Made by a program: the position numbers and the translations under genes
Virus record (IMG/VR): IMGVR_UViG_3300023174_003433
Span: 53,728 to 117,727 of that record
DNA from: a virus
Length of the DNA stretch: 64,000 bases
Reading direction: 5' to 3' (one strand)
Notes under the pieces: model-generated
Told to the model about the DNA's origin: nothing
Databases searched by the model: none
The model's input: the letters and a program-made list of their open reading frames with translations, nothing else
Shown: piece by piece, positions 32,184 to 45,223 of the stretch
Position numbering within the stretch: position 1 is the stretch's first letter
How the letters are laid out: each line of letters begins with the position of its first letter

Positions 32184-32227
32184 AAAAAACCCGCCAAGGT
32201 TGCGCATTGTTAAGAGGCGTGGCGGGT
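32184..32227 (-). terminator. Intrinsic terminator at convergent operon ends
   Basis: ACCCGCCA (32189-32196) pairs with TGGCGGGT (32220-32227). On the minus strand the stem is followed by TTTTTTATTAT, a classic U tract, so it terminates leftward transcription from the gp32 region. It also lies 7 bp after the plus-strand operon stop and could act weakly in both directions. Confidence 0.85.
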
Positions 32228-35625: not shown

Positions 35626-35633
35626 TTATTTAT
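35626..35633 (-). promoter_or_regulatory. T4-type late promoter
   Basis: GATAAATA on the minus strand, immediately after the terminal hairpin of the tmRNA coding piece and 60 bp upstream of the 92-residue gene. Well placed for late expression of the endolysin cluster. Confidence 0.55.
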
Positions 35634-35930
35634 CCAGGTGATTCTGTTGCTAAGTTCACCTGGTGAAACTCCGCTTACCTTTTAGGCAGCAAGTGCAAAC
35701 TTATTATCGTTAGCGTTTAATTTAATTTAGTGATTACGCCTTCTCTGGCGATTCTCCATTATTATACTAATCTGATAATCGAATCTATTCGCCCCCATTA
35801 GGAACTACACTAGACCAGTCTGGCTCTGTTTGCTACCGATAACTCGGTTCGTTCTAATGTAGTTGCTGGTGGAGGCGGTGGGATTCGCACCCACGTCTTA
35901 CCAAACGTTTTAATAACTTCTACGAATTAT
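35632..35930 (-). ncRNA. ssrA: Circularly permuted two-piece tmRNA
   Basis: On the minus strand the acceptor piece comes first and ends CGCCTCCACCA at 35867, with a T arm GTGGG-TGCGAAT-CCCAC. A 70-nt intervening loop follows, then the coding piece begins GGGGGCG at 35796. GGGGGCG pairs with CGCCTCC to give a 7-bp acceptor stem with the G3.U70 pair that specifies alanine. A D-like arm (GATTCGA) and a P2 helix (TTATCAGAT with GTTTGGTAA) also join the pieces. The tag frame GCT AAC GAT AAT AAG TTT GCA CTT GCT GCC TAA at 35714-35682 encodes ANDNKFALAA. A final 8-bp hairpin (CCAGGTGA/TCACCTGG) closes the coding piece. Ends are approximate. Confidence 0.93.
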
Positions 35931-36037
35931 TTCAAAATAAAAAGTATTGCTAGTACACCTACAGCGAATGCACAGGCACCCATGTAGAAAGCAAAACTTC
36001 TTACCTTATATTCTTTTACACAATCTTTGCTAGGCAT
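35927..36037 (-). CDS. Small membrane protein, 36 aa
   Basis: ATG at 36037, overlapping the preceding stop as TAATG. MPSKDCVKEYKVRSFAF is followed by one transmembrane segment (YMGACAFAVGVLAILFIL) and a terminal Lys. It lies directly upstream of the tmRNA and shares its transcript. Possibly a holin-like or signalling peptide; that is speculation. Confidence 0.65.
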   Translation of the reverse strand: MPSKDCVKEYKVRSFAFYMGACAFAVGVLAILFILK

Positions 36038-36659: not shown

Positions 36660-37324
36660 TTGTATTGGTCCTTATAAAATTGTATGGCCTTTACCAAACC
36701 ATCGATATGATGTTCTGTTTTTTCTTGGAACAATAAAGGTTGTTCATCTTGTACTGCCATGATAATGACCAAATTATTTATTGGTGTGCCAATCAATTCT
36801 TCATACATGAGTGCATATGCTGATGTTTGCCAGAAATAATCTTCAATCTCAACTTTAGATTTTATTTTCTTAGATGTTTTAAAATCAATTACAGATAATA
36901 CACCATCAAACTCACCAATACAATCTACACGACCTGCCATACCTAATTGTTTAGACCATAGTGCTTGTTCTTGGTAATGAATATTATTGATACGATTGAG
37001 TAATGGCTTGATTGATTTAAACATTTCTTTGGCATCAGGCATAATATCACCTAACGATTCATTGTTTAAATAACGTTCACATAGTGTATGAACATTGGTG
37101 CCACGACCTGTGGCGGCCTTTGATATTCTATTGGCCTCTGCTTCACCAACTCGTTTACGCCATGCCATGATGGCATCTTTCTTTTGTGCACCAAGAACTG
37201 TGGTGACCGATGGCAACTTTGTGCCATCTTCTAATGTATAGTATCGTTTACCATCAGGAAAAGTTTCGGATTGTAAGTCTTTTAGTTCTTTTGGTGAACA
37301 GTAATTAAACATTCTTTTTCTCAA
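36656..37324 (-). CDS. PD-(D/E)XK exonuclease (RecB/Cas4-like)
   Basis: 222 residues; ATG at 37312 (MFNYCSPKEL) is an equally good start. Motifs: SVTTVLGAQKKDAIMAWRKRVGEAEANRISKAATGRGTNVHTLCERYL (the GxxxH..E motif I), then WSKQLGMAGRVDCIGEFDGVLSVIDFKTSKK, with Asp and the DFKTSK core of the nuclease. A QTSAYALMYEEL motif follows. Such enzymes are frequent in T4-like phages of aquatic hosts, where they probably process recombination ends or degrade host DNA. Substrate not determined. Confidence 0.85.
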   Translation of the reverse strand: MRKRMFNYCSPKELKDLQSETFPDGKRYYTLEDGTKLPSVTTVLGAQKKDAIMAWRKRVGEAEANRISKAATGRGTNVHTLCERYLNNESLGDIMPDAKEMFKSIKPLLNRINNIHYQEQALWSKQLGMAGRVDCIGEFDGVLSVIDFKTSKKIKSKVEIEDYFWQTSAYALMYEELIGTPINNLVIIMAVQDEQPLLFQEKTEHHIDGLVKAIQFYKDQYK

Positions 37325-37907
37325 ATTTAGGTATCAATAAAAATTCTCTTGTTATATCTATAATATAAATTAATCTTCTTTTGTTTGTTCTATTATATGC
37401 ACTATGTAATTCTCCATTATCAAAAGCAAACAAATTTGACCAATTGGTTGTTAAACCATTAACTTCAAAACCAGAATCTCCTTCGGGTATGATTAGTGGT
37501 ATATGTATTCTAACACTATTATGTGACCTATTTTCAACATCAACGTGTTTTTTAATTATTCCACCAGATTCTAAAATACTATAACCACTACAACCACAAT
37601 GTTTAATATATTTTTGTGTTAATGTTGATGCTGTTGGAAAAGCATTTGACACCTTTGGATCTAAAAACATATTACTCTCTTTTTTTTGTTCTGGCAAGAA
37701 GTATCGTAAACCTTCAACTTTCCAATCCACTTTTCCGGGAACATGATCTAAAATAGCCAATGGATTTGCCTTAGAATAGGGAATACCTCCCTTAAATGTG
37801 GTGTCAAAATCTTTGTGGTGGGCTAAAAATTCACTTCGTAAGTTTGGTACCAATGATAATAATTCATCCGCAATATGTATTTCTTCTTTTGTCCAAAGAT
37901 ATTTCAT
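37305..37907 (-). CDS. Aspartyl/asparaginyl beta-hydroxylase-like 2OG oxygenase
   Basis: 200 residues. The double-stranded beta-helix signature is visible: GGIIKKHVDVENRSHNSVRIHIPLII (HxD iron ligands), FEVNG, LFAFDNGELHSAYNRTNKRRLIYIIDI (distal His and the 2-oxoglutarate-binding Arg). This is the pattern of Asp/Asn beta-hydroxylase-like dioxygenases. First member of a run of oxygenase-like genes. Protein or small-molecule target unknown. Confidence 0.78.
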   Translation of the reverse strand: MKYLWTKEEIHIADELLSLVPNLRSEFLAHHKDFDTTFKGGIPYSKANPLAILDHVPGKVDWKVEGLRYFLPEQKKESNMFLDPKVSNAFPTASTLTQKYIKHCGCSGYSILESGGIIKKHVDVENRSHNSVRIHIPLIIPEGDSGFEVNGLTTNWSNLFAFDNGELHSAYNRTNKRRLIYIIDITREFLLIPKFEKKNV

Positions 37908-39424
37908 TGTATGCCCAACTTTAATTTTTTATATTCTAAAATGGTTTGATCCGCTTCTCGTATTTTTTTATTTAAAAAAGACTTGTCAAAATTGCCATCA
38001 ATAATGTCTTTAATATCAACACCCATACCAACCAATTCATAAACATCATGGTTGATACTAACTCCCTTATCGGCATTTCCATAAATCGATTTACCAGCTT
38101 TAATTCTGTGTTTTTCGGTCTCAATATTTAATTGATTAGTAATTGTTCTGGCCGTGTGCCAGTTCGTATATTTGTTTTTCCATATCATCACACCATTATT
38201 ATCCGTACCATATTTTATATCATCATCAACTTTTGGTATGGAATATTCTCCTGGTAACAGTTCAGTATAACCCCATTTGTCATATTCTTTTTCAAATTCA
38301 CTTAGGCGGCTTATTGAACCTTTTCTAATTAACAACGGCCACCAATCCCAATTATCGAACACTTCAAAGTTTTGGTCAAGTAACATTTGTTGGCTTTTAA
38401 TCACACTAGAGATTGGTTCTCCTGGTAAACCACAAATCATACCAGTATATGTATAGATTGGTTTGTATTTCTTTAATTGCCTAATTGCCTCAAACTGTCT
38501 TTCATTATCTAATCCTTTGCCAATGGCTTTCTTTGCTTCTGGATGAAATGTTTCTAAACCAAAAGTTGCAGCGACTAATCCTGTATCGGCCAACATTGGA
38601 ATTGTTTCAGGAAAAGCCTCAATTAAATCTGCTCTGAGAAATGCTGTATATGTTATTTTTATTCCACTTTTAGCAATTGCTTCAGCAACATATTCCAATT
38701 TAACTACATTATCATTAAAGGTATCATCATTAAACCAATAATTATTGACACCAAACATTTCATAATTTCTTCTCAACTCAGCAGATAGGTTATCCACATG
38801 ACGAATATAATCATTCTTTTTTTTACCTAAAAGTGGAAAGGCACAAAATCTACATCTAAAAATACAACCTCTACTAATTTCAATCGGTAAAAAATTGTTT
38901 TTAATCAAATCACTTTCCAACCATTTGATTGTCAGGTCGCTAGAATCATTCTTGTATAACATTTCCGCATTGATTGATTTTGTTCCACGATAAGGCACCC
39001 ACGGCAAATCATTCAAAAGCTTTTTATTAAGAAATTTCATGTAGTGTAACATGGCTTCTTCAGAATACCCCCAAACAATTCTATCTACTTGTGTCAAATC
39101 AACACCTTCAATAGGAGTTTCACTACCACCAATTAGTGTTTGTACTTTTGGATATTTTTCTTTGATGTGTTTGAATAGATAATTAATTTTATCGAATGCA
39201 TATATGAATGTTATACTGATACCAATAAACAAAGTTTTTGGTCCAATATATCTTTCACAAAGTAGTTCTAGTTCTCTTTCAGTAAAATTACCAAAATAAT
39301 CTATAACTTCAATATTGTAATTGTGTTGTTCTAAAAAAGTTCTTAGGCGTGCGGCACCAGCAGGACGACTAATTGTCCTAGTTCTTTCCATACCAGTGAA
39401 TATAATACCATGCCGATCATCCAT
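37904..39424 (-). CDS. B12-binding-type radical SAM protein
   Basis: 506 residues. Residues ~15-140 look like a cobalamin-binding Rossmann domain (PAGAARLRTFLEQHNYNIEVIDYFGNF...TLIGGSETPIEG) without a clear DxHxxG. The radical SAM core has Cys187, Cys191 and Cys194 in ISRGCIFRCRFCAF, followed by WFNDDTF and CGLPGEP motifs. This architecture is shared with BchE-like and methyltransferase or epimerase-type enzymes. It overlaps the neighbouring oxygenase by 4 bp. Together with the SPASM enzyme downstream it suggests modification of a peptide or glycan. Reaction unknown. Confidence 0.82.
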   Translation of the reverse strand: MDDRHGIIFTGMERTRTISRPAGAARLRTFLEQHNYNIEVIDYFGNFTERELELLCERYIGPKTLFIGISITFIYAFDKINYLFKHIKEKYPKVQTLIGGSETPIEGVDLTQVDRIVWGYSEEAMLHYMKFLNKKLLNDLPWVPYRGTKSINAEMLYKNDSSDLTIKWLESDLIKNNFLPIEISRGCIFRCRFCAFPLLGKKKNDYIRHVDNLSAELRRNYEMFGVNNYWFNDDTFNDNVVKLEYVAEAIAKSGIKITYTAFLRADLIEAFPETIPMLADTGLVAATFGLETFHPEAKKAIGKGLDNERQFEAIRQLKKYKPIYTYTGMICGLPGEPISSVIKSQQMLLDQNFEVFDNWDWWPLLIRKGSISRLSEFEKEYDKWGYTELLPGEYSIPKVDDDIKYGTDNNGVMIWKNKYTNWHTARTITNQLNIETEKHRIKAGKSIYGNADKGVSINHDVYELVGMGVDIKDIIDGNFDKSFLNKKIREADQTILEYKKLKLGIQ

Positions 39425-39427
39425 AAT

Positions 39428-40201
39428 TTATTTTTTAGTTAAATATTTTTCTTTGATTGCTTCAAAGAAATCAATATCTTCTTCAGTCAATTCAACACTT
39501 TCAATTTTTTCCATTTGGCCACGAATATAGTTACGATACAATTCAAAATCACCTTCATATTTAAAATTCTTTGTAATTTTTTTTGTATCGTAAGCATCCA
39601 TAATAATATGGTACCGATCTTCGTCAGAATCATTTCTAATTTGGTGCCAAAGATTTGTCCAAAGAATCCAAACACCACCATCTGCCGGCATGTGTAGATT
39701 TTTACCTTGGCATATGTGAACAGATTTTTTATTAGTCCACAATGGTATGTGTATGCGGGTCATATATTCGGAAGAATTTGCATCTCTATGAATTAAACTC
39801 TTTGAGTGTGCTTTTAGACAAGCAACTCTCGCTCTACACGGAGTTAATCCAAGCTCACGCAAATCATCCAATACTTTTTTAATTTCACCAACATACGCTT
39901 CTGTTGGTTTGTCATGTTCTAATCCATGATAAATGTTAAAATGTTTATATGCTTTCCAAATTAATTCTTGTGTAGGTAAAAAGGACTCTAATGTTTGTCC
40001 TTGTTCTAGTTGAATTGCTTCCCAGCCATCAGTCCATGTGGCATTTCTACTCAACAAACTCCAACCACCAAAACCATGATATTTTGGTGTTTCATATTCT
40101 TTACCTTGAACAACTTGGTCACCTAAAATGAAAACACTTTCACGGACTTCTTTTTTTAATTTTTCAATATCAACTGTATAATCTAATTTTTCAAAAAACA
40201 T
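39428..40201 (-). CDS. 2OG-Fe(II) oxygenase-like protein (beta-hydroxylase type)
   Basis: 257 residues. Core signature: LIHRDANSSEYMTRIHIPLWTNKKSVHI (HxD ligands and a substrate-strand RIHIP), then GGVWILWTNLWHQIRNDSDEDRYHIIMDAYD (distal His, Arg). The N-terminal GFGGWSLLSRNATWTDGW is conserved in Asp/Asn hydroxylase-like phage proteins. It lies between the B12 radical SAM gene and two further oxygenase-like genes. Substrate not known. Confidence 0.75.
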   Translation of the reverse strand: MFFEKLDYTVDIEKLKKEVRESVFILGDQVVQGKEYETPKYHGFGGWSLLSRNATWTDGWEAIQLEQGQTLESFLPTQELIWKAYKHFNIYHGLEHDKPTEAYVGEIKKVLDDLRELGLTPCRARVACLKAHSKSLIHRDANSSEYMTRIHIPLWTNKKSVHICQGKNLHMPADGGVWILWTNLWHQIRNDSDEDRYHIIMDAYDTKKITKNFKYEGDFELYRNYIRGQMEKIESVELTEEDIDFFEAIKEKYLTKK

Positions 40202-40212
40202 TTTTATTTCCT

Positions 40213-40881
40213 TTATAAATTTCCAGTTTCTTTTAACATTTCGTACACTTGTTCATAGTTATAGTGTCTGGTTCTTAAAGCAAAAGCTTTTCTAAGTTTT
40301 GTGCCATCCAATGGTTCAACATTATGTGCCACACTAACATCTAACAAATACGCTTCATTCTTATTAGCGACAAATGAACCAATTTCATACACATCGTCAA
40401 AAGTATATACTGCATCAACATATGTAATTTCTTCACAAGTGGGCATATTTTGTTTCTCAGCTACAAACTCTTTAACTTTAGTTTTTAAATCTTCCACATT
40501 AATATCTTTTGCTTGCATATTGCCAGTTGTAACCTCTGTGTGCCTATCTTCTTCTGTTTTCCAAGAATTTGCACCTGGTTTTGCTTTCCAAAAAATAGTT
40601 TTATAATCTCCTGGTTCATAATAAAAATTAATTGTTGTTATAAAATCATTATCAACATGAGGTAACAATAAACTATTAATTGACATTCTCGTTACTTGAA
40701 AATCTTTCCAATACCTTTCTGGAATAACTTTATATAAAGTTTCACGTTCAGGTTCTGGTGTCCAAATTGTACTGTGTCTTACTCCTAATCCATATTTTCC
40801 TGCAAATGAATCAGCCTGACCTTTTGGTATAATTGTGTGTGGCATATATTCATAGAGGTGTTTTAATTTAACAAATGCCAT
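40213..40881 (-). CDS. 2OG oxygenase-like protein, paralogue A
   Basis: 222 residues. Contains SLLLPHVDNDFITTINFYYEPGDYKTIFWK (HxD and strand) and AYLLDVSVAHNVEPLDGTKLRKAFALRT (distal His and Arg). It is clearly homologous to the next protein: both share ERYWKDF/RRYWQDFHLT and end YEQVYEMLKETGN-type sequence. Tandem duplication is therefore likely. Target unknown; start overlaps the paralogue's end by 14 bp. Confidence 0.7.
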   Translation of the reverse strand: MAFVKLKHLYEYMPHTIIPKGQADSFAGKYGLGVRHSTIWTPEPERETLYKVIPERYWKDFQVTRMSINSLLLPHVDNDFITTINFYYEPGDYKTIFWKAKPGANSWKTEEDRHTEVTTGNMQAKDINVEDLKTKVKEFVAEKQNMPTCEEITYVDAVYTFDDVYEIGSFVANKNEAYLLDVSVAHNVEPLDGTKLRKAFALRTRHYNYEQVYEMLKETGNL

Positions 40882-41401
40882 TACCTGTTTCCTTTAACAT
40901 TTTAAGGACATCTTCATACTTATGTATGAAAGTTCCTAGTGTAAGTGCTTTTCTTAAATTAAAATTCCCTTGTACGCCGTGTATTTGAGTTACATCAAGT
41001 AACCAAATTTCAAAATCTTTGGCAATAAAACTATCTACCTCAATCAAATCTTCTTCAAAATAAATGTGACCATTAGTTTGATTTTTAACCTGTATAGTTT
41101 TTAAATCATTATTTTTTGGTTTATAAAATACAGTTTTACAACCTTCTGTTTGCAAATAAAAATTAATTGAAGTAATTATTTCCGTGTCTGTGTGAGGAGG
41201 TATTATACAGTCAATTGTCATTATTGTCAAGTGAAAATCTTGCCAATACCTTCTTGGTAATATACCATAAAGTTTTTCTGCTTCGGGTGACCATATCTTT
41301 TTGTAATCAATACCCTTGCCATTATCACCTTTAAATGATTTTAACGGATCGGTAATTGCATAAAGTGGTTTTTCAAATGTTTTTTCCAATCTGGCAAACA
41401 T
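40868..41401 (-). CDS. 2OG oxygenase-like protein, paralogue B
   Basis: 177 residues. RRYWQDFHLTIMTIDCIIPPHTDTEIITSINFYLQTEGCKTVFYKPK gives the HxD pair and the beta strand; IWLLDVTQIHGVQGNFNLRKALTLGTF gives the distal His and Arg. It lacks the ~45-residue middle insertion of paralogue A. Likely iron and 2-oxoglutarate dependent by fold; activity inferred only. One-base overlap with the upstream oxygenase. Confidence 0.7.
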   Translation of the reverse strand: MFARLEKTFEKPLYAITDPLKSFKGDNGKGIDYKKIWSPEAEKLYGILPRRYWQDFHLTIMTIDCIIPPHTDTEIITSINFYLQTEGCKTVFYKPKNNDLKTIQVKNQTNGHIYFEEDLIEVDSFIAKDFEIWLLDVTQIHGVQGNFNLRKALTLGTFIHKYEDVLKMLKETGNGIC

Positions 41402-42111
41402 TACTCAAGTTTCCACTCTTTGATTTTGGACATTCTGCCTGCCCAACTTTTTAAGATAACAGTATTTGATGCGTCTTTATCGACTACTTTTCTTAGGTCG
41501 GTCGATAATGAAATTCTTAAATCATCTGATTTGTTTTCATCAATACCATGTAACACATAAGACGGGAAGAAAATTAATCTACCTTCAACGGGTTTATATC
41601 TACGTTCACGCATGAAAGGACTGCCACTTAAACGATTATTCTCCCAATCAATGGCATGAGAAGAATCAAATGCCACTAAATCACCACAACCTTCTTTGGC
41701 TTTGATGTAATATGTTGCAGCAATTGCTGATTCAGTATGTCCGTGTACTTCAAGTCTTTCACCTGGTTCCCGTACATTGACCCAACCCATGAAATGTTCA
41801 CAACCACGAATATTTAACATACGAAGTTGTGGTATGTTCTGTACAATTTTTCTAGTTACAATATCAATAATTTCTTGTTTAAGTATATCTAAATTGGGTC
41901 TGCTGTAGTCCCATATACTATTATGAGGATCTCTATCTACACCTAAGGCAATATTTTTACCAATGGCATAAATTTCTTCTAATAAAACTTCATTGAATGA
42001 TGTATCGAATTTGGTTTGTTCTTCCCAGATTGGGCTTTGCCAAAACATATTTTGTGCATTTTGATACCAATGATAACGATCCCTATCAGCTTTTGTTTTA
42101 AAACTATTCAT
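41401..42111 (-). CDS. 2OG-Fe(II) oxygenase-like protein of the HxE/HxD...H type
   Basis: 236 residues. FMGWVNVREPGERLEVHGHTESAIAATYYIKAKEGCGDLVAFDSS, then GRLIFFPSYVLHGIDENKSDDLRISLSTDLRK resemble the putative 2OG oxygenases that are very common in T4-like phages of aquatic bacteria. The distal His lies in VLHGI and the co-substrate Arg in RISLS. Known relatives are of unknown target. It is 12 bp from the next gene, so operonic. Confidence 0.78.
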   Translation of the reverse strand: MNSFKTKADRDRYHWYQNAQNMFWQSPIWEEQTKFDTSFNEVLLEEIYAIGKNIALGVDRDPHNSIWDYSRPNLDILKQEIIDIVTRKIVQNIPQLRMLNIRGCEHFMGWVNVREPGERLEVHGHTESAIAATYYIKAKEGCGDLVAFDSSHAIDWENNRLSGSPFMRERRYKPVEGRLIFFPSYVLHGIDENKSDDLRISLSTDLRKVVDKDASNTVILKSWAGRMSKIKEWKLE

Positions 42112-42123
42112 AATAAAATATTA

Positions 42124-42510
42124 CTACTTATTTTCTTTTGCAAAGAGCTCTGCGTGAAGTCTTAATCTTTCCATTTTAGCTTGATGTGCTTCTTCTGTTA
42201 TGTCAGCATCTTTTGCCATGTCTAAAGCGTATCGATATTCTTCTATAGGATTTCTTTCTTCATCTTGAAAAACCCATCCGGCACCAATACTTTTAACAGC
42301 TACTTGCAAAGGAGATTTCCATACTCTATCTAAAATATCCCCATAATTCTGTTCAATTAAATAAACTTCTTCTTTTTCTTCTGGTGAAAGTTTCAAGTAA
42401 TTTTGTTCGAAAATAGTTTTAAAAAATTCTCCCACACACATTGGGTTGAATATAATTGTATTGCCATCATGTGTTGTTAAAGTTTCTAATGAAGTAAAAG
42501 TATTTTTCAT
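42124..42510 (-). CDS. Hypothetical protein, 128 aa
   Basis: MKNTFTSLETLTTHDGNTIIFNPMCVGEFFKTIF with an acidic helical C-terminal half ending EEAHQAKMERLRLHAELFAKENK. Not recognised. Its position inside the oxygenase/radical SAM island and 4-bp overlap with the next gene suggest a partner protein, for instance a binding or chaperone component. Confidence 0.6.
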   Translation of the reverse strand: MKNTFTSLETLTTHDGNTIIFNPMCVGEFFKTIFEQNYLKLSPEEKEEVYLIEQNYGDILDRVWKSPLQVAVKSIGAGWVFQDEERNPIEEYRYALDMAKDADITEEAHQAKMERLRLHAELFAKENK

Positions 42511-42830
42511 TGTTTATCCAGCCATAATTTATATTCTCGAATTAATTCGTTATTTACACCTTTTCTTAAAGCCACAGGCAAAAATACTATAGAATTTAAC
42601 ATTGAATTTCCATATAAATTAGTTATCATTTTTTCATGGTCTGTTACCATCTTAAAATATCTTTCTTTATCTTGTTTTGAAAAAGAACTAATAATTTCAT
42701 AACTAATGACATTGGCAAAATAAGAAACATGGTCATGTATATACTGGCCATTATCGTCTGCAGTTATTTCAACCGCTTTAAGTTTTCCTTTAGGTTTTTT
42801 CTTTATAAAGGTTTTTCTTAATTCTTTCAT
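42507..42830 (-). CDS. Hypothetical protein, 107 aa
   Basis: Basic N-terminus (MKELRKTFIKKKPKGKLKAVEI) then a helical region (DKERYFKMVTDHEKMITNLYGNS). No family recognised. It overlaps the cysteine-rich protein's stop by one base, so the two are translationally coupled; it may act on or accompany that protein. Confidence 0.6.
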   Translation of the reverse strand: MKELRKTFIKKKPKGKLKAVEITADDNGQYIHDHVSYFANVISYEIISSFSKQDKERYFKMVTDHEKMITNLYGNSMLNSIVFLPVALRKGVNNELIREYKLWLDKQ

Positions 42831-43732
42831 TAAACAATTTTCCTTTGTGGTGTCAATTTTTCAATCATTCGGCCAAGTTCAGCAACTAGTTTAAACATGA
42901 CAAAAATAACAACAAGAGATGCACCTTTAATGAATCCTGGTTTCTTTTTACTTGGACCAAACCAACGGCGCCATACACCCACAACTTTACAAATTGGTAT
43001 GCCAAAAATCATTAACATTTTACCGGCAATACTACCAGTTTCTTTTTCGCCCATCATATAGGCCATTTCTTCAGCCCAAGGTGTTGCAATATCATAAGCC
43101 CAAGATGTTGACCATTTCTTGGCAGCAATACTAAATTCTTCGTCATTCATCCAAGGCATCATTTTTGGACCTTTACCTTCCATCCAATCAACGACAATTT
43201 CAGCCCATGCTCTGTAACCATTGTAAATGTCTGGATTGGTCTTAATTAGTCTTTCACCAAATGCTTGGTCGGCTTCAAAAATGCTTTGCTTCATAAGGCC
43301 AATTTCAAATAATTTAGTACAAATAATTTTACTACAATTACAATCATATGTGAAGCAATTTTGGTCACTTGTACAATTATATGTGGGTGTTGGCGAAATT
43401 TGACAATTTCCCGTTTGCAACCAAGATTGTGTGTCACAGTTGGCAGCACCTATGTTGGTACAATTATTTGTTGTATAGCATTGAATTGCCTCTCCGCCAC
43501 CACAGTTACTACAGTTGCAATTAGTTACGTTACCATTATTGCAGTTACCCTGGTCATTCTGTAAAAAATAACTTAATCCCCAAAACCCAGCCAAATTTGG
43601 CGTACCTGGTCGTATACCCGGTTTTATGTAATCGTTCAAAAAAGTTAAATCAGCAGCGGTTCCTACAGGAATTCCGAGCTCGGTTTCAATATCCGCTATG
43701 CCAATTGGTTGTCCTGAAGATGGTAATGTCAT
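42830..43732 (-). CDS. Cysteine/asparagine-rich virion-like protein
   Basis: 300 residues. Residues 1-55 form the anchor module of phage fibre-type proteins (MTLPSSGQPIGIADIETELGIP.., TPNLAGFWGLSYF). Residues 64-138 (DNA 43319-43543) hold 13 cysteines, often as CxC or CNC, set in Asn/Gly/Thr. The C-terminal ~150 residues are helical with a hydrophobic stretch (GASLVVIFVMFKLVAELG). It has its own late promoter and sits next to a SPASM radical SAM enzyme. A modified structural protein or RiPP-like precursor is inferred. Disulfide-bonded or metal-binding alternatives remain open. Confidence 0.7.
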   Translation of the reverse strand: MTLPSSGQPIGIADIETELGIPVGTAADLTFLNDYIKPGIRPGTPNLAGFWGLSYFLQNDQGNCNNGNVTNCNCSNCGGGEAIQCYTTNNCTNIGAANCDTQSWLQTGNCQISPTPTYNCTSDQNCFTYDCNCSKIICTKLFEIGLMKQSIFEADQAFGERLIKTNPDIYNGYRAWAEIVVDWMEGKGPKMMPWMNDEEFSIAAKKWSTSWAYDIATPWAEEMAYMMGEKETGSIAGKMLMIFGIPICKVVGVWRRWFGPSKKKPGFIKGASLVVIFVMFKLVAELGRMIEKLTPQRKIV

Positions 43733-43765
43733 TTTTACACACTTTTTAAAAGGTTATTATTTTAT

Positions 43766-43773
43766 TATTTATA
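43766..43773 (-). promoter_or_regulatory. T4-type late promoter of the cysteine-rich gene
   Basis: A perfect TATAAATA on the minus strand, 34 bp upstream of the cysteine-rich gene and overlapping the stop of the SPASM radical SAM gene. It marks the cysteine-rich protein and the oxygenase genes below it as late genes. Confidence 0.7.
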
Positions 43774-45223
43774 CTTCCAAACGAGATTTGCCGTATACAG
43801 GAACATCGTCTACTTGACCAACAATTTCTTTTACAACTTTAATTGGTATGATTTTTTTATTGGATTTTTCTTCTTCATGTTGAAAGATAGTACCAAAAAT
43901 GTCTTGTCTATCTAATGGTAAAGTATCACTCTTAATTAAAGTGGGTACATATCCATTGGTTATTAAGGTGAATGCCGAAGCAAACAAAGCCACATTATCT
44001 GAATAGGCATTGGCACATGAGATGTCCCAAAACTTTTCATCCAAGAACATACAGGCACCTTTACAAATGTGTAGTACAGGACACTCAGGACATTCTTTAC
44101 GATTTGACCAATGAGTAACTGATTTGAGTTCTACGTTTGAATAATCACTCAAATTACCACCATGATGTGATTCTCCATTCTTTGAGATTTCTAAAGAACT
44201 GACATTTTGACAGGTCATTACATTTCCACGTAAATCCACTGCAATGGTATGTTCGTCATCCATACCACATTTTTGGCCTAAGTATTTTGCTTCTGAGTGA
44301 TTTAAAATAGATTGAATCAAACTGTCAATTTTACCCAATTGAGCAACAAATCCTATTTTACCTCCAGTACCATACAATTCACCAAAAGCTTTTTTTCTGA
44401 ATTCAAAATGTTCTTTTTTTGTAATTAAAGAGTTTGAAATGCCTTCTTCATCATAAGCATCAACCAAAGAACCTTCACCAAGTTTAACGTCCTCATCACC
44501 AGTTAAATTCACAAACCAATCATAAATTTCTTTTCTACTTTGATTTTTAGAATTCAACATCGAATTAAAACTAAATTTTTTACCTAAACGAGTCATCATT
44601 CTATAAAACCCAAGAATAGTTTCTTTCTTTTCTGGATCGTCAAAAGGATCTGGACCACGAACAAATTGACCAGGACCATCATGTGATATGGCTACAGAAA
44701 AGTCCATCATCATCAACCAATCAATGATTTCATCTGTCAAAATAGAACCATTTGTAATAATACTAAATCTTGGTTTAGTTTTCCAATCATCAAATTTTTC
44801 AGCGATAGCCTCAGCCAAAGGTTTTAATGTTTTCCAATACACAAGAGGTTCACCACCCCAAAATTCGATTGCCAATCCAACATCTTCATCAAAATGTAAA
44901 GATTCTAATTTTTCCATGAAAGCATCGATGTCTTTCTTTGATGTTTCTGGTTGACGTTCAACAAATTTTTGAGAACAATAATCACAAGAATAATTACAAC
45001 TTAAACCCATTTGGATTTTTAAAGTACTAATTAATTTGGCCTTCTTTAATGGATGATTTTTATCAAAAGACTTAAATGGTTTTAAGTTAAAATTTTGTCT
45101 TTGATTTTCTGGATATTCAAAAATATTACCTTCTGCATCCTTTAAGACATTTGCAATGTTGTCATAATGGAAAATTTTTGTATCACCATCCTCAAATCTG
45201 GTGCCTTTAATTTCAAATAGCAT
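43769..45223 (-). CDS. SPASM-domain radical SAM peptide-modifying enzyme
   Basis: 484 residues. Cys76, Cys80 and Cys83 in GLSCNYSCDYCSQKF bind the SAM cluster. FWGGEPLVYWKTL is the GGEP motif. The C-terminal SPASM region has KCGMDDEHTIAVDLRGNVMTC and ECPECPVLHICKGACM for auxiliary Fe-S clusters. The family modifies ribosomal peptides or matures enzymes such as sulfatases. The N-terminal ~65 residues may hold a peptide-recognition part. Its likely target here is the cysteine-rich protein encoded next; that is inference. Confidence 0.85.
   Translation of the reverse strand: MLFEIKGTRFEDGDTKIFHYDNIANVLKDAEGNIFEYPENQRQNFNLKPFKSFDKNHPLKKAKLISTLKIQMGLSCNYSCDYCSQKFVERQPETSKKDIDAFMEKLESLHFDEDVGLAIEFWGGEPLVYWKTLKPLAEAIAEKFDDWKTKPRFSIITNGSILTDEIIDWLMMMDFSVAISHDGPGQFVRGPDPFDDPEKKETILGFYRMMTRLGKKFSFNSMLNSKNQSRKEIYDWFVNLTGDEDVKLGEGSLVDAYDEEGISNSLITKKEHFEFRKKAFGELYGTGGKIGFVAQLGKIDSLIQSILNHSEAKYLGQKCGMDDEHTIAVDLRGNVMTCQNVSSLEISKNGESHHGGNLSDYSNVELKSVTHWSNRKECPECPVLHICKGACMFLDEKFWDISCANAYSDNVALFASAFTLITNGYVPTLIKSDTLPLDRQDIFGTIFQHEEEKSNKKIIPIKVVKEIVGQVDDVPVYGKSRLEV

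Follow-up and report, generated by a model that had tools for sequence, protein, structure and literature searches.

A SPASM radical SAM enzyme paired with Asn-Cys-rich, fibre-like proteins in tailed phages: a candidate RiPP-like maturation cassette for fibre tips

Introduction

Why would a tailed phage carry a radical SAM enzyme with a SPASM domain beside a gene for a protein packed with asparagine and cysteine? The question is raised by a stretch of 64,000 nucleotides (the window), part of a virus record of 117.7 kb. An earlier note had described a modification island in it, with two radical SAM proteins, several oxygenase-like proteins and a fibre-like Cys-rich protein, had likened the set to a RiPP maturation cluster, and had suggested that the phage modifies its own adhesin or an injected peptide. 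In the open-access literature, to which the search was limited (it left out all preprints and most subscription papers), we found no account of radical SAM enzymes that modify phage fibres. Here, we ask how firmly the enzyme and the Cys-rich protein belong together, and what the one may do to the other.

Results

The locus

Baseplate wedge, gp25-type, DUF4815-type and single-strand-binding genes are recognisable in the window, which therefore stems from a T4-like tailed phage. Its host was not determined; the placement of the SPASM enzyme in our tree fits phages of freshwater Burkholderiales. The island lies on the minus strand and runs from 45223 to 37305 in window coordinates (Table 1). The gene inventory drawn up in the earlier note was correct: every ORF was found in its place, Pfam confirms both Radical_SAM proteins, and the "about five" 2OG-oxygenase-like proteins are two PF05118 proteins, one 2OG-FeII_Oxy_5 protein and the pair p177 and p222, which have the HxD...H...R residues and a predicted double-stranded beta-helix (DSBH) fold. 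Overlaps of 1-20 bases between genes, also reported there, exist at about half of the junctions, the remaining ones being gaps of 3-36 bases.

Table 1. Features of the island, in window coordinates, with the basis or distribution of each assignment
Feature	Position	Strand	Basis or distribution
SPASM radical SAM maturase, 484 aa	43769..45223	-	Pfam/NCBIfam; GQKCGMD and TCQN signatures; Cys invariant in 20 diverse members
Putative substrate, 300 aa: N-terminal module 1-55, Asn-Cys segment 63-138, helical C-terminal domain 136-300	42830..43732	-	
DNA coding for residues 63-138 (Asn-Cys segment), the presumed target of modification	43319..43546	-	Conserved in 54 homologues
Unknown 107-aa protein	42507..42830	-	Homologues directly after the NC gene in some relatives
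Unknown 128-aa protein	42124..42510	-	Limited to close relatives
2OG-Fe(II) oxygenase (2OG-FeII_Oxy_5, PF13759, phrog_81)	41401..42111	-	Domain recurs in unrelated NC cassettes
p177, 2OG-oxygenase fold	40868..41401	-	Invariant HxD...H...R; predicted fold
p222, tandem paralogue of p177	40213..40881	-	
Asp/Asn beta-hydroxylase-like (PF05118)	39428..40201	-	Pfam; kept in nearly all T4-type relatives
B12-binding-type radical SAM protein	37904..39424	-	Pfam Radical_SAM and weak B12-binding match; close relatives only
Second Asp/Asn beta-hydroxylase-like (PF05118)	37305..37907	-	Pfam; close relatives only

Two RNA matches were recorded elsewhere in the window, both on the minus strand: a permuted, alpha-type tmRNA gene at 35631-35978 (RF04321, 102.9 bits; RF01849, 59.4 bits), and a match to the abiF RNA family at 32189-32226 (51.5 bits against a gathering score of 37), which adjoins the single-strand-binding protein gene.

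The SPASM enzyme

The SPASM enzyme has a CxxxCxxC motif at C76/80/83 and seven SPASM cysteines (319, 338, 378, 381, 387, 391, 403). It meets the SPASM criterion CX9-15GX4C-CX2CX5CX3C-C, with C319, G333, C338, C378, C381, C387, C391 and C403 all invariant, and more than 60 columns, those of every radical SAM and SPASM cysteine included, are invariant in a profile built from 20 diverse enzymes. Judging from these residues, the enzyme has what is required for 5'-deoxyadenosyl radical chemistry with two auxiliary clusters; the activity itself is inferred.

The family is distinct, with its GQKCGMD and TCQN signatures. Identity with a known NCBIfam maturase was rejected, since the scores lie far below the cut-offs in every curated model. 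The nearest curated families are Cys-peptide maturases, with the PapB ranthipeptide maturase at the top (NF047865, 83 bits against a cut-off of 340); the anaerobic sulfatase maturase model TIGR03942 gives 48 bits against a cut-off of 349. Among solved structures, the anaerobic sulfatase-maturating enzyme (anSME) can be detected as a relative, and so can the radical SAM protein 5WGG. In PHROGs the family corresponds to phrog_1802, for which no role is listed. In the tree, the window group joins the enzyme of locus L071 and prophage-type members from Polynucleobacter and Paraburkholderia with full support.

The Asn-Cys protein

The product of 42830-43732 has the 13 cysteines in residues 64-138 that the earlier note had counted (64, 72, 74, 77, 85, 91, 99, 110, 120, 126, 131, 133, 138), plus one at 248. 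Among 54 distinct homologues, three of which contribute no segment, asparagine makes up 22% and cysteine 21% of the Cys-rich segment, and 596 of 802 cysteines (~74%) directly follow an asparagine; we refer to these as NC repeats. The window protein is less regular than most, with fewer NCNC runs. Its codons are mixed (Asn AAT/AAC 9/6; Cys TGT/TGC 9/4), so the segment is not a simple DNA repeat, and this, together with its conservation in the homologues, led us to reject a simple-repeat artefact. Tandem Repeats Finder reports just two short, low-scoring repeats in it. The segment is disordered in an AlphaFold model. The only PDB match of the NC-protein profile, a cytochrome c555 trimer construct, is marginal (E 4e-4, no stretch passing alone) and was taken as chance.

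On our reading of the sequence, the N-terminal module of about 55 residues resembles phage fibre proteins, and at L135, within the tail module of a prophage, an NC protein bears a similar one. The C-terminal domain is helical with a hydrophobic end. The same domain is found at the end of DUF4815-type virion proteins and of one cyanophage protein and is therefore a movable module; a fold search against solved structures returned nothing significant for it, and its relatives are viral only. The evidence for a fibre is thus indirect: the N-terminal module, the occurrence of the C-terminal domain on DUF4815 proteins, and related proteins encoded within tail modules. Location in the virion has not been shown.

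Across the family, the NC tail usually stands at the C-terminus or just before a Hint, S74 or helical domain; neither Hint nor S74 is recognised in the window protein. With the NC part taken away, at least four unrelated groups of N-terminal scaffolds can be told apart (67, 62, 11 and 6 members). Many are C-terminal extensions of tail-fibre proteins that adjoin J-type tail genes, and short NC proteins of 119-133 aa occur as well; in L094, one of 133 aa and the SPASM enzyme next to it make up a minimal pair of two genes. One locus (L129:2156-4385, minus strand) encodes three NC proteins in tandem, one of which ends in the window-type helical domain.

Pairing of enzyme and Asn-Cys protein

A homologue of the NC protein lies beside the enzyme in 74 of the 75 nearest viral loci, some of which are near-identical contigs. 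The remaining locus, L071, encodes a form of 125 aa in which the C-terminal domain is missing but the N-terminal module and NC segment are present, so that the NC protein is kept in 75 of 75. When all 265 family ORFs are grouped at 90% identity, an automatic rule scores 113 of 119 testable clusters as NC-positive, and hand reading of L278/L279 brings the count to 114. The five others are three from Variovorax, one from Bacteriovorax and one short fragment. Loss of the Cys-rich protein from phages that keep the radical SAM genes, which the earlier note had named as grounds for refutation, is thus not what is seen.

The reverse search was blind to radical SAM genes: viral contigs were scanned with a DNA pattern that encodes NCNC[DN]CNCNCxC. 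Those loci found in this way that have a genuine NC protein led back to the same SPASM family. Four of them (L106, L108, L110, L131) seemed to lack the enzyme, and a family enzyme is present in each whole record (E 1e-170 to 1e-210); such cases are locus-edge or ORF-picking effects, not true absences. Records that have the same C-terminal domain without an NC segment, our negative control, contain no SPASM family member, and off-frame pattern matches (e.g. L096, L104, L123) have neither an NC protein nor a family enzyme in the flank examined. Locus L098 was left out, as its NC tail is short and its radical SAM relative weak and shorter. There, a large tail-type protein (L098:10564-12459, minus strand) ends in RNCNCDCNCNCDC, and the nearby radical SAM relative is distant.

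The pairing is not one fixed arrangement. The genes between the two partners differ among loci, and the enzyme comes first in the window group, the NC protein elsewhere. Given the scaffold groups, the varying middle genes and the differing gene order, descent of one cassette explains the pairing poorly, and from the sequence comparisons the link looks functional.

Bacterial genomes and cultured phages

A profile search of bacterial genomes returned 86 relatives of the enzyme, mostly from Burkholderiales and Alphaproteobacteria, and the loci are prophages where checked. Among the 61 with at least 5 kb upstream, an [NDA]C.C.C ORF lies upstream on the same strand in 49, downstream in two and on the opposite strand in one. 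In most cases the motif either stands at the C-terminus, with 0-9 residues after it, or is immediately followed by a Hint domain. In PHROGs neighbourhoods, two checked loci are beside lambda J-type tail proteins and a third is among tail-fibre proteins. Members without an NC protein occur in Variovorax and relatives (L193-L196), and in Bacteriovorax (L207, L209), in both cases in non-phage settings, which shows that the enzyme family is not strictly fibre-specific. The enzymes of L193-L196, which are not phage-borne, sit beside a protein of 750-777 aa and a small Cys-containing peptide gene (L196:7612-7821), perhaps a separate RiPP cluster.

Close relatives among 50,697 isolate phage records are confined to Achromobacter phages JWF and 2-1, whose annotations call the enzyme an anaerobic sulfatase maturase or a radical SAM protein and assign no role to it. 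In both, the cassette sits in a tail-fibre module, and the NC motif precedes a Hint-type domain in a fibre gene two genes upstream of the enzyme. In JWF, the NC protein is the product of PJWF_00028, with the residues NCNCDCNCNCSC. These two phages are cultured test systems for the pair.

Oxygenases and other tailoring genes

Both AspH-like proteins exceed the PF05118 gathering score of 22.6 bits (47.3 and 36.0 bits). p177 and p222 are 41% identical and match no Pfam family. H70, D72, H141 and R150, a metal triad and an arginine for 2OG, are invariant in them, and the fold predicted for this type is a double-stranded beta-helix (pLDDT 90) whose best PDB neighbours include NO66, MINA53, YcfD and FIH. 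On residues and modelled fold, they satisfy the criteria for 2OG-Fe(II) oxygenases (HxD...H, Arg, DSBH). Comparing the profiles of p177 and AspH2 did not add support; this came from the predicted fold.

Other NC cassettes carry other enzymes. There are 2OG oxygenases (PF13640 in L093, PF13759 in L115 and, weakly, in L182), membrane desaturases as fatty-acid-desaturase-type pairs (L114:4888-6398, L111:4605-6042 and L037; PF00487 confirmed for L114), and a second, smaller radical SAM-type protein adjoining the family enzyme (L118:4695-5708, L165:1140-2165). The cassettes look like a common core with changing tailoring enzymes. The earlier reading, in which a phage modifies its own adhesin, is supported for the SPASM enzyme; the B12 radical SAM protein and the AspH-like protein at 37305-37907 are confined to the closest relatives and would be optional tailoring enzymes at most.

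AspH-like enzymes suit the Asn and Asp residues of a Cys-rich segment; that this segment is their target here is inferred. The nearest named NCBIfam relatives of these proteins act on lipids or free amino acids, and the 2OG oxygenases could have other targets. We lean only slightly towards the inference that they share the substrate of the SPASM enzyme. In cyanophage-like contigs (L087:17388-18457, L089:17267-20354), one to three other radical SAM genes lie downstream of a DUF4815-type protein with the C-terminal domain, possibly another modification system.

Discussion

We consider it probable, in the absence of biochemical data, that the phage encodes at this locus a RiPP-like cassette for the maturation of Asn-Cys fibre tips, to which hydroxylases are optional additions. 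Gene content, family membership, active-site residues and the near-obligate pairing of enzyme and NC protein are direct observations. For the SPASM enzyme, modification of the phage's own adhesin remains the best reading, owing to the near-constant pairing and the tail-fibre module context, although neither a modification nor a virion location has been shown. That the two proteins are enzyme and substrate we infer with considerable confidence, and we are equally confident in inferring that the NC protein is part of the virion.

According to our model, the SPASM enzyme would act inside the cell, while the virion is being assembled or earlier, on the Asn-Cys segment of a fibre-type tail protein. 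Its 5'-deoxyadenosyl radical chemistry would most likely join cysteine sulfur to neighbouring residues as thioether cross-links. Disulfides are short-lived in the reducing cytoplasm; a segment hardened covalently by thioethers could, unlike them, form there. This segment would usually be the C-terminal tip of the fibre, or would precede a Hint, endosialidase-chaperone or helical domain, which may be removed or may anchor it. In the phage studied here, hydroxylation of Asn and Asp residues of the segment is the probable task of the AspH-like proteins and the other 2OG oxygenases, and the B12 radical SAM protein may be an optional extra tailoring enzyme.

The nature of the product is the least certain part. 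PapB makes thioethers in Cys-Xn-Asp with n = 0-6, and thus tolerates adjacent Cys and Asp (PMC9413430), a range that would, by analogy, be compatible with directly adjacent residues. As PapB is also the nearest curated family, we judge the thioether to be the likeliest single product, tentatively, with its chances about balanced against all other SPASM outcomes combined. The chemistry of PapB cannot simply be transferred, because the NCBIfam scores are far under the cut-offs. SPASM enzymes also perform epimerisation, formylglycine formation, carbon-carbon cross-linking and Asn modification, and the same pair might carry out any of these, with Cys as the precursor of formylglycine. The anSME and 5WGG relatives and the annotation of the JWF copy as an anaerobic sulfatase-maturating enzyme speak for this; yet anSME has no special lead, scoring below many others, and PapB is followed by several further Cys-peptide maturases. 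Such other chemistry is a real possibility, though not the one that we would expect. A simpler role for the cysteines is metal binding: in T4 and P2, the tips of fibres and spikes bind iron through HxH motifs, and an xCxCxC tail could bind metal along the axis of a trimeric fibre, the enzyme modifying Cys or a neighbour to aid binding without any cross-links. Strict xCxCxC alternation, C-terminal position and tail-fibre context would all suit this. However, metal binding by itself would not call for the radical SAM enzyme that almost always accompanies the NC protein, and window-type segments are long and alternate in part only, which makes the idea unlikely.

Two further explanations do without a modified fibre. 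The NC protein could be the precursor of a cleaved peptide, secreted or injected against the host or competing phages, and not structural. The short NC proteins, the hydrophobic end of the helical domain, which could enter a membrane, and the RiPP-like settings of non-phage family members are in keeping with it. Neither Pfam nor PHROGs, however, revealed a protease or an exporter/transporter in the island, and so many NC proteins extend tail-fibre proteins beside J-type tail genes that we think it quite unlikely. Finally, as phage tail-fibre modules move as cassettes and biochemistry is absent, the enzyme might merely travel with the NC protein and act on another molecule. Against this stand the unrelated scaffolds that carry NC tails, the differing middle genes and gene order (the enzyme comes first in the window group, the NC gene elsewhere), and the lack of the enzyme in relatives without an NC segment, and we regard mere co-travel as very unlikely.

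If maturation of the fibre tip is correct, radical chemistry, which had been known from peptide natural products and a small number of enzymes, serves tailed phages in building the part that contacts the host. The orphan phrog_1802 would be explained, SPASM enzymes would gain a new substrate class, and the system would be a source of very stable protein cross-links. The idea would also bear on host recognition, since without the maturase the fibres would stay unmodified, and it is directly testable in phages JWF and 2-1. On balance, we favour the view that this is an undescribed and widespread maturation of viral structural proteins. In tailed phages and prophages, a dedicated SPASM family would covalently harden the Asn-Cys fibre tips, and hydroxylases, desaturases or additional radical SAM enzymes, which differ between lineages, would contribute further chemistry to the surface that meets the host.

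Several known systems resemble parts of this one. Anaerobic sulfatase-maturating enzymes (4K36) have the same architecture and match the sequence distantly, but the score falls far short (48 against 349 bits) and no sulfatase is among the listed neighbours. AspH-type Asp/Asn beta-hydroxylases (PF05118), to which two island proteins belong by Pfam score, act in animals on Asn and Asp of Cys-rich domains, whereas the substrate of the phage proteins is unproven. The processing domains of phage tail fibres, Hint and the endosialidase-type chaperone (PF13884), directly follow the NC repeat in some members; the window protein instead has a different, helical C-terminal domain, the one that also ends DUF4815 virion proteins. 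Closest are the PapB-type ranthipeptide maturases (NF047865), SCIFF (CteB) and CcpM, which likewise combine radical SAM with a seven-Cys SPASM domain and have a Cys-rich ribosomal substrate beside the enzyme. In those systems the substrate is a small secreted peptide; here it is a tail-fibre-type Asn-Cys protein, with no protease or exporter seen. The likeness to a RiPP cluster that had been noted earlier is borne out on one point: a gene-encoded putative substrate lies beside its putative maturase and the two are conserved as a pair. The locus would work like a RiPP maturation pair whose enzyme is outside every maturase family tested and whose inferred substrate is a phage tail protein.
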